Of a stretch of 45,692 nucleotides of DNA, positions 12,230 through 39,864 are shown one piece after another. Made by a program: the position numbers and the translations under genes. The notes beneath the pieces were generated by a model. It made no database searches. It was given only the letters and a program-made list of their open reading frames with translations, and was not told the DNA's origin. Every line of letters begins with the position of its first letter. Positions within the stretch are counted from its first letter, which is position 1. The stretch is from an uncultured Ruminococcus sp. (GTDB lineage Bacteria > Bacillota > Clostridia > Oscillospirales > Acutalibacteraceae): contig CAJOLF010000001.1 of assembly GCA_905235295.1 (NCBI GenBank), positions 1-45,692 of the forward strand. The letters are read 5' to 3'.

Positions 12230-12235
12230 TGAAAA

Positions 12236-12582
12236 GCGACTGTGTCTGTAAGCCGGGTTCTGTCTTGAACAGCCATCTATCTTGGCAGCGGGTTGCCCCA
12301 ACTGCTCGATGCCACCTCCAAAGAACTCGCCGAGCAAGCGATAAATGTTCTACCACGGTGTTGCTTCAAATAGGGTTTACACGGCAGGTTGGTCTCCCAA
12401 CCTCCGGTGAGCTCTTACCTCACCTTTCCACCTTTGCGCCGAAAAACGGCGTAGTTTATTTCTGTTGCACTATCCCTGGAGTCGCCTCCGGCGGCCGTTA
12501 GCCGTTATTTTGCTCTGTGAAGCCCGGACTTTCCTCGCACAGGTCTTTTCAGTTCCTGCCCGCAGCTGTTCGGCACACTCGC
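12236..12582 (-). ncRNA. rnpB: RNase P RNA (class A)
   Basis: Minus strand GAGGAAAGTCCGGGCTTC, ACAGAACCCGGCTTAC and P1-type pairing of GCGAGTGTG with CACAGTCGC. Confidence 0.95.
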
Positions 12583-37626: not shown

Positions 37627-38316
37627 TTAATCTTCCAGCATATTGCTTTCTCTGAGAGAAACGTAGTCGTCGTCAGTGATAATAAAATGATCAAACAGCC
37701 TTACTCCCACCGCCCGCAGGGTTTTTGCAAGAGTTTTGGTTGTATTAACGTCAGCGGTTGACGGCAGAGCGTTTCCGCTCGGATGATTGTGGGCGACAAA
37801 CGCGAGCCTGGCGTTGTGGCGTATTGACAAATCTACGATTTTCCTAATCGGCATATCGGAAGAATTAATCGACCCCTTGGCGACAACGTCAAAAAAGATA
37901 ATTTTACCCTTCGCGTCGCCCAAAAGGAGCACAACGACCTCTTCTACCCTGCCGATAAACTTTGTCTTTATGACGTCTCCGATTGTGTCAAGCTCTATTG
38001 TGTTGTCGCTGTTCAGCTTTGACTCGTTATAAAGTCTCGACATGTGAGGAAGAAGCTTTAGCAGCACCGCCGTGTTCTCGGACAAGCCGAATTCATCCAT
38101 CAGCTCGTCAATGGGCGCGTCGCAAACACCCGCAATGGTAACAAAACGGTCAAGCAGCCTGTGCGCCAGCGGATTTGTGTCTTTTCTCGGAATCGCGTAA
38201 TATAGGTATAATTCAAGAGCCTCGTGCGGATTAAAGCCGTCAAGCCCGTTATTAATAAACTTTTTCTTTACCGATTGTCTGTGACCGTTGTGTACGGACG
38301 AATTTGATGAAGCCAT
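37627..38316 (-). CDS. radC: RadC/JAB-domain protein
   Basis: [48 protein letters not shown] before ATG 38316. Confidence 0.9.
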
Positions 38317-38342
38317 TTTTCTCTCCCAAACAGCAAATTTTA

Positions 38343-38466
38343 GACAATACTGCATAATTCAGGTTTGCGGATTGCGCAGAAGGATTTTTGGGCACTCTGA
38401 CGGAATAATATTCATACCCAAAAGGGCACTTAGCAAGGCGTGCGCCGTGAATTGTGCGGTGTTGCC
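38343..38466. repeat. MITE-like palindromic element C between pyrE and radC
   Basis: Imperfect TIRs gacaatactgcataattcagg / revcomp ggcaacaccgcacaattcacgg; inner stem TTTTGGG...CCCAAAA. Confidence 0.6.
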
Positions 38467-38467
38467 T

Positions 38468-39142
38468 TTATTTTACGCCGTATTGCTCGTAATAGGCGTC
38501 AATCGCTTCCTTCAGCTTGTCATCAATAATAACCTTGCCTTTATACTCCTTATTATACAGGTGCTCCACAACCTCTGCCATGGTTACAATGGCGGTTGTT
38601 TTCAGTCCGTATTTTTCCTCAATCTCTGCAAGAGCGCTTTTTTCGCCCTGTCCGCGCTCCATTCTGTCTACGGACACAACAAGACCTACCGGGTTAACCT
38701 TGCCCTGAGCCTTGATTATCGGCAGGGTTTCTTCAATGGATGTTCCCGCGGTTGTGACGTCCTCGATGATAACAACCTTGTCGCCGTCGTTAATCGGGCT
38801 TCCGAGCAGGATTCCCTTGTCTCCGTGATCCTTTATCTCCTTGCGGTTTGAGCAATAGCGGACGTCGGCGCCGTATTTTTCGCTGATTGCGATTGCCGCG
38901 GCTACGGAAAGCGGGATTCCCTTGTACGCGGGTCCGAACAGAACGTCAAAGTCAAGACCGAAGCTGTTATTAATCGCTTCCGCGTAATACGCTCCGAGCC
39001 TCCTGAGCTGAGCGCCGGTTCTGTAAAAGCCTGTATTTACAAAAAACGGCGTTTTGCGGCCGCTTTTGGTTACAAAGTCGCCGAATTTCAAAACCTGACA
39101 ATCCACCATAAATTCAATAAATTCCTTTTTATAACTCTCCAT
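38468..39142 (-). CDS. pyrE: Orotate phosphoribosyltransferase
   Basis: GRKTPFFVNTGFYRTG, FGPAYKGIPLSV, VVIIEDVTTAGTSIEETLPII. Confidence 0.93.
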   Translation of the reverse strand: MESYKKEFIEFMVDCQVLKFGDFVTKSGRKTPFFVNTGFYRTGAQLRRLGAYYAEAINNSFGLDFDVLFGPAYKGIPLSVAAAIAISEKYGADVRYCSNRKEIKDHGDKGILLGSPINDGDKVVIIEDVTTAGTSIEETLPIIKAQGKVNPVGLVVSVDRMERGQGEKSALAEIEEKYGLKTTAIVTMAEVVEHLYNKEYKGKVIIDDKLKEAIDAYYEQYGVK

Positions 39143-39407: not shown

Positions 39408-39455
39408 TTGACATTATAGAACAAGTGTTCTATAATAATATCAAACATACGTTTG
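39408..39455 (+). promoter_or_regulatory. Consensus SigA promoter with LexA-type SOS box in the spacer and a second degenerate box downstream
   Basis: TTGACA (39408-39413), N17, TATAAT (39431-39436); AGAACAAGTGTTCT at 39418-39431; CAAACATACGTTTG at 39442-39455. Confidence 0.85.
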
Positions 39456-39469
39456 TTTTGAGGTGTAAA

Positions 39470-39706
39470 ATGAAAAGATATGTCAGCGTCAAGGTAATGT
39501 TTGAAGAAAACGGAAATATTGTTCCCGAAGCCATAACGTGGGATGAGGAGCACTGCTACCCTATCAGCAAAATAATTGATATAAGATGTAAAAAAATTAC
39601 CGCCAAAATTACCGAAATTAAATTCACCTGCGTTATCCTCGGGCAAATCAAGTATTTATATTATGACGAAAAAAGATGGTATGTTATACTGAGAAATGCA
39701 AAATAA
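39470..39706 (+). CDS. Small (78 aa) putative SOS-regulated protein of unknown function
   Basis: MKRYVSVKVMFEENGNIVPEAITWDEEHCYPISKIIDIR...YYDEKRWYVILRNAK; AGGTG RBS; LexA-like operators upstream. Confidence 0.8.
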   Translation: MKRYVSVKVMFEENGNIVPEAITWDEEHCYPISKIIDIRCKKITAKITEIKFTCVILGQIKYLYYDEKRWYVILRNAK

Positions 39707-39864
39707 TACTATTCTTTGATAAAAGACTTTAAAACAGATGTCGATGGAAAATTCCGCATAACAAGGCGGAGGACGCAGGAATCCTGACGGATTCCGAGGA
39801 CAACAACGCAGTTATGCGAAATTTTACACGGCAGATGTTAAAGGATTTTATTAGAGAATAGTAT
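39706..39864. repeat. Full-length family A MITE-like element (159 bp)
   Basis: Long imperfect TIRs starting ATACTATTCT/AGAATAGTAT; inner arms AAAATTCCGCATAAC/GTTATGCGAAATTTT; central hairpin GGAATC ctgacg GATTCC. Confidence 0.75.

Follow-up and report, generated by a model that had tools for sequence, protein, structure and literature searches.

What is a gene for a protein of 78 amino acids doing alone behind a consensus promoter overlapped by LexA-type boxes? We analyzed a 45,692-nt stretch of contig CAJOLF010000001.1 (the window) from an uncultured Ruminococcus sp. (assembly GCA_905235295.1). In it, the gene for this small protein (SP), 78 codons beginning with ATG, lies between a divergent pyrE upstream and a convergent gene downstream. 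The first-pass annotation had described the gene as standing alone, which is true at this locus. We conclude that the locus is probably an SOS-regulated operon of a Pol IV-type polymerase and SP that has lost its polymerase, so that a LexA-type promoter now directly precedes SP. The features on which the argument draws are collected in Table 1.

Table 1. Features of the SP locus, in window positions
Feature	Position	Strand	Remarks and basis
pyrE, divergent syntenic neighbor marking the locus	38468..39142	-	Pribosyltran
SigA-type promoter, TTGACA-N17-TATAAT	39408..39436	+	exact consensus, letters TTGACATTATAGAACAAGTGTTCTATAAT
24-bp perfect inverted repeat	39413..39436	+	LexA box core at center, -10 included; sequence
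LexA box core GAACAAGTGTTC	39419..39430	+	fills end of spacer, abuts -10
Second, weaker LexA-type box CAAACATACGTTTG	39442..39455	+	24 bp downstream of the first
Ribosome-binding site, GAGGTG	39460..39465	+	sequence
SP open reading frame, 78 aa, all-beta; taken as divergent standalone ImuB-C/DUF6504-like	39470..39706	+	translation, model, homologues, profile link
Codons of the beta3-beta4 hairpin loop (~residues 38-52)	39581..39625	+	site of SxKxGGxG in linked homologues, absent here

Promoter and operators

The first-pass annotation had read a full consensus SigA promoter at this site, an SOS box core at the end of its spacer abutting the -10, and a second, degenerate box ahead of the ribosome-binding site; all three elements were borne out. 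When spacers of 16 to 18 nt were allowed, this promoter was the only exact TTGACA/TATAAT pair in the window, where shuffling predicted 0.01. The arms of the inverted repeat match perfectly over 11 bp (ATTATAGAACA-AG-TGTTCTATAAT). L142, the closest relative, has the same second box letter for letter, though non-coding DNA further upstream has diverged; between the two intergenic regions, both boxes and the promoter hexamers were kept and the remainder changed. The core alone, GAACNNNNGTTC, is expected 0.71 times per window by chance, which is not significant, and has 13 exact sites genome-wide. We rejected this count as evidence because chance accounts for it. A -10 element directly behind the box was absent at the other 12 exact genomic boxes.

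The same arrangement recurred among relatives. TTGAC[AT]-N17-TATAAT was present at 15 of 15 loci at which SP has no adjoining polymerase gene (solo loci), and all 15 solo genes had a box (no more than one mismatch) directly before TATAAT. The Pol IV operons of relatives combine TTGAC[AT], an exact or near-exact box and the -10 at once; 11 of the 12 examined fit the full architecture, with TATTAT in the twelfth. Most relatives have a further box 24-32 bp downstream of the first. At SP copies linked to a polymerase, the 110 bp upstream of SP itself contained a box in 0 of 62 instances (chance rate ~0.02 per region).

A LexA protein is encoded in the same genome (L001; PF01726, E=7e-16; TIGR00498, E=4e-61). 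The annotation had staked its reading on finding the motif ahead of core SOS genes, and this expectation held: the genome's own lexA has the box GAACAAACGTTT upstream, and a one-mismatch box was found in 20 of 21 recA upstream regions of relatives, in which recA boxes were read, the window genome's own recA sitting at a contig end. The box at the genome's lexA has the form shown to bind LexA in C. difficile, where the lexA box is AGGAACAAATGTTTGC; this GAAC....GTTT form is listed there for both lexA and recA, with binding of LexA observed by SPR (PMC4234289). GAACAAGTGTTC is a Gram-positive LexA box shared with core SOS genes (lexA and the relatives' recA) and with the Pol IV operons. Given the conservation of promoter and box at solo loci and Pol IV operons, together with the boxes at lexA and recA, LexA control of the SP promoter is well supported by comparative sequence evidence. 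The tight repression and very strong induction that were also foreseen are a plausible prediction from this layout.

Homologues of SP and kinship with ImuB-C

The orphan status of SP is local: elsewhere in Clostridia, homologues are normally encoded by the second gene of a Pol IV operon. Within the genus, made up of relatives of Ruminococcus bromii, 40 of 60 genomes had a homologue, as did 67 of 392 genomes across the class; R. bromii is itself among the named relatives with SP. At 62 of 80 named loci, SP lies directly behind a Y-family polymerase ending in ..HPVGY[LF], in agreement with the earlier impression that it resembles small proteins of SOS/Y-family polymerase operons. The linked polymerase is of the Pol IV type (IMS, IMS_C; best NCBIfam model NF002848). 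A neighborhood check for lexA and polymerase genes, as the annotation had proposed, placed a Pol IV-type polymerase (25 loci) or lexA (one locus) near SP at 26 of 30 class-wide loci. The pairing of polymerase and ImuB-C has already been reported (PMC6511836).

Three variations were seen among these genomes. One genome that has no SP (G005) encodes a Pol IV (L046) lacking the RecA-NT/HPVGY tail, which fits SP going only with tailed polymerases. A single open frame in another genome (L325, G091:C175) encodes two tandem SP-like domains. Some genomes have multiple SP matches (seven in G386, two neighboring in G384), suggesting expansion.

Scans of Pfam, NCBIfam and PHROGs gave no usable match for SP, and a sequence search of the PDB gave none. 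The AlphaFold2 model (pLDDT 89.9) is all-beta with six strands; Foldseek found no significant match to it in the PDB, and the best match in a viral library was an uncharacterised siphovirus protein (E=1.5e-3). We compared SP with DUF6504 by profiles, the right comparison since the ImuB-C of D. deserti (Deide_1p01890, PMC8072749) is annotated as DUF6504; it fits the DUF6504 profile at 6e-17. The profile-profile probability was 27-63% before divergent members were added and, with them, 89-92% by HH over nearly the full length. In the first comparison of the two profiles, the global score was above 400 of 400 column shuffles. SP sequences scored far above 3450 shuffles against the DUF6504 profile, and intermediate sequences matched both profiles (L315 at 2e-6 and 3e-6, L320 at 8e-13 and 6e-5). 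None of 292 Clostridia genomes contained PF20114 (DUF6504), and a DUF6504 search across the phylum found it in 97 of 399 genomes. A single-sequence structure prediction of one DUF6504 protein reached pLDDT 55 and was kept out of the comparison.

ImuB-C proteins are described as ~80 aa, beta-rich, and carrying a conserved C-terminal Trp and positive residues (PMC3765255). SP has these features, with 78 aa, six strands, and K2, R69 and W70 invariant. A further feature, location beside a translesion polymerase gene, is absent in this genome and present in most homologues. As SP has no match to the curated DUF6504 models of Pfam or NCBIfam, we call it ImuB-C-like and do not file it as a DUF6504 member; we take it to be a divergent standalone protein of this kind, beyond the reach of curated models. 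Kinship with YolD was rejected, with no PF08863 match in Pfam and an HH probability of 3-7%.

Several known systems are similar in part. Clostridial YqjH-type polymerases with a standalone ImuB-C, found mostly in Clostridia (Timinskas and Venclovas 2019, PMC6511836), resemble the relatives' Pol IV-SP operons in having a RecA-NT-like C-terminal motif and a small beta-structured partner gene, a likeness drawn by description that does not claim the SP family as a member of that ImuB-C set. The window locus differs from these operons in that the polymerase is gone and SP lies directly behind the SOS promoter. The ImuB-C of the Deinococcus lexA-imuY-imuB-C-dnaE2 operon (DUF6504, PMC8072749) is, like SP, ~80 aa and beta-rich, with a C-terminal Trp and a place in an SOS operon, but SP is below Pfam/NCBIfam detection of DUF6504 and has neither DnaE2 nor ImuY beside it. 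The YolD/YqjX proteins of Gram-positive UmuC-type polymerases are also small SOS-linked partners, sometimes encoded apart (S. aureus); SP lacks profile similarity to them, however, and in this genome the UmuC-type polymerase already has a YolD-like gene behind it. In actinobacteria, DnaE2 can be linked only to ImuB-C, without PolY (PMC12926913). That ImuB-C shares with SP the lack of an adjacent Y-family polymerase, but it stands beside DnaE2, whereas SP stands beside no polymerase.

Probable loss of the polymerase gene

We compared gene order around SP in 20 relatives. A pyrE 89-94% identical to that of the window stands beside 8 other solo SP copies, and the same pyrE adjoins Pol IV-SP operons in relatives. 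The order pyrE, SOS promoter, Pol IV, SP was found in G002, G029 and G032 and, interrupted by one or two further genes, in G038 and G030; the order pyrE, same promoter, SP was found in the window, G046, G027, G021 and G056, with outer neighbors in common in most. At a second locus, pgm (phosphoglucomutase) is followed by Pol IV and SP in G016, G045, G055, G023, G039 and G048, and by SP without Pol IV in G028 and G054. Beyond the window, eight solo SP copies lie by pyrE and five by pgm. SP is therefore alone in the window because a conserved locus here lacks its polymerase gene, and the class-wide occurrence of the Pol IV-SP operon indicates that the direction was loss of the polymerase, not its insertion.

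On a midpoint-rooted tree of RecA and LexA, the solo state needs 4 changes, at least 3 of them forced by well-supported branches; among the species sampled, solo G028 is sister to linked G045, and solo G054 to linked G023. The only Pol IV-type match among the 15 solo genomes was a 120-aa fragment in G027. As the window genome is a draft assembly of 142 contigs (97.5% complete), a Pol IV gene could lie unassembled elsewhere; the intact locus excludes one here, and the 14 other solo genomes are alike.

Two observations concern the same loci. A RadC-like JAB protein adjoining pyrE (37627-38355, minus strand) belongs to a gene cluster (c9) that recurs at the pyrE locus of relatives. In G072, the Pol IV beside SP (L251) appears as two overlapping matches with one internal stop, which may reflect either a misassembly or a polymerase gene already broken but not yet lost.

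The history that we favor would begin with an operon in which the ImuB-C-like SP came second, after a Pol IV-type Y-family polymerase; the polymerase gene would then have been removed. RNA polymerase would be blocked by LexA dimers bound at the box next to the -10 and, probably, at the second one as well. DNA damage would then lead, through RecA-triggered cleavage of LexA, to a burst of SP.

Selection on solo SP and its possible roles

That SP and its SOS switch were kept after the polymerase was lost suggests that SP is useful without that polymerase. Between the window SP and that of L142 (~72% identical protein), dN was 0.20 and dS ~2.2, giving a dN/dS of ~0.09 that is approximate because dS is near saturation; by this comparison, solo SP is under purifying selection. 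Core residues were invariant across all 15 solo copies. The SxKxGGxG motif of the hairpin loop was present in 65 of 65 polymerase-linked copies and in 1 of 15 solo copies, and was gone in the other 14. Of the positions conserved in linked copies, solo copies kept 81% outside the loop versus 39% inside it, although the loop is intact or almost so in two solo copies (L193 and L204); these counts treat related sequences as independent, and the independent lineages number approximately four. Erosion of the loop in a protein that is as a whole under purifying selection points to the loop as the part that probably touched Pol IV, the rest of SP presumably having another job. SP would have been kept since its other surface may still serve translesion synthesis, with RecA, the replicase or a UmuC-type polymerase as its most likely partner.

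ImuB-C is the least understood module of the mutasome, the one "characterized least" (PMC6511836). By losing the polymerase repeatedly and keeping the subunit together with its SOS switch, natural lineages separate the function of the subunit from that of the polymerase, and the loop lost each time becomes a candidate contact surface. We put forward, with some reserve, that ImuB-C-type subunits may serve the SOS response independently of their polymerase: after replacement of the cognate Y-family polymerase by UmuC/YolD, the subunit would persist as a free SOS-induced factor whose target is RecA, the replicase or the new polymerase, and would shed only its polymerase-binding loop. As far as we could find in the literature, no earlier work describes an SOS-controlled ImuB-C-like subunit kept after its polymerase was lost.

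SP could also have passed to the UmuC-type polymerase that stands in for Pol IV. A polymerase of this type (~500 aa) is present in 15 of 15 solo-SP genomes; most linked genomes contain the Pol IV type alone. Behind the UmuC-type gene of the window genome comes a 145-aa YolD-like gene (PF08863 E=0.09, below the cut-off), and the promoter of the operon has a degenerate box, GAACAAACGTGC, before TATAAT; a box abuts the -10 of the UmuC operon in this genome, in G046 and in a few others. The C-terminus of both polymerase types is a RecA-NT-like motif, with probabilities against RecA of 81% for the UmuC type and a weak 18% for Pol IV alone, and of 95% between the two tails. A precedent exists in S. 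aureus, where YolD is encoded in trans under shared SOS control (PMC6511836). SP may accordingly have been reassigned as a second small subunit, acting in trans in a UmuC-YolD-RecA mutasome, which would refine the last step of the favored history and leave the history of loss the same. We regard this reassignment as possible but lean against it: three genomes (G015, G022 and G033) lack SP and still have the UmuC type, for which SP is therefore not strictly needed; the loop was lost with no new conserved loop in its place; and most UmuC operons lack the box at the -10. In one relative, a solo SP gene and a UmuC-type polymerase gene (L172:3248-4675, minus strand) converge, the latter ~500 bases downstream of the former; the arrangement may be a relic of replacement at this locus.

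That SP is instead a decaying leftover, its polymerase lost too recently for SP to have vanished as well, appears improbable. Loop erosion would agree with decay, as would UmuC-type genomes without SP, which are expected if loss is ongoing, but the low dN/dS between two solo species largely refutes it. Moreover, both operators were kept while flanking non-coding DNA diverged, the core is invariant in every solo copy, and the solo lineages are repeated and partly old. Control by another palindrome-binding repressor (e.g., of the TetR or MarR type), with LexA uninvolved, is very unlikely: the 11-bp arms exceed a LexA box in length and the core alone could occur by chance, but the relatives differ in the outer left arm and agree in the GAACNNNNGTTC core and in its position ahead of the -10, the same site serves Pol IV operons with boxes also at lexA and the relatives' recA, and no regulator gene is adjacent.

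Two further features of the window lie apart from the SOS locus proper. Downstream of SP, at 39753-39860, is an imperfect inverted repeat (GCATAAC...GTTATGC) with GGAATCCTGACGGATTCC inside, possibly a terminator or a mobile repeat; its core occurred nowhere else among all loci compared. At 12233-12581 (minus strand), the window encodes an ordinary bacterial class A RNase P RNA (Rfam RF00010, 264 bits).
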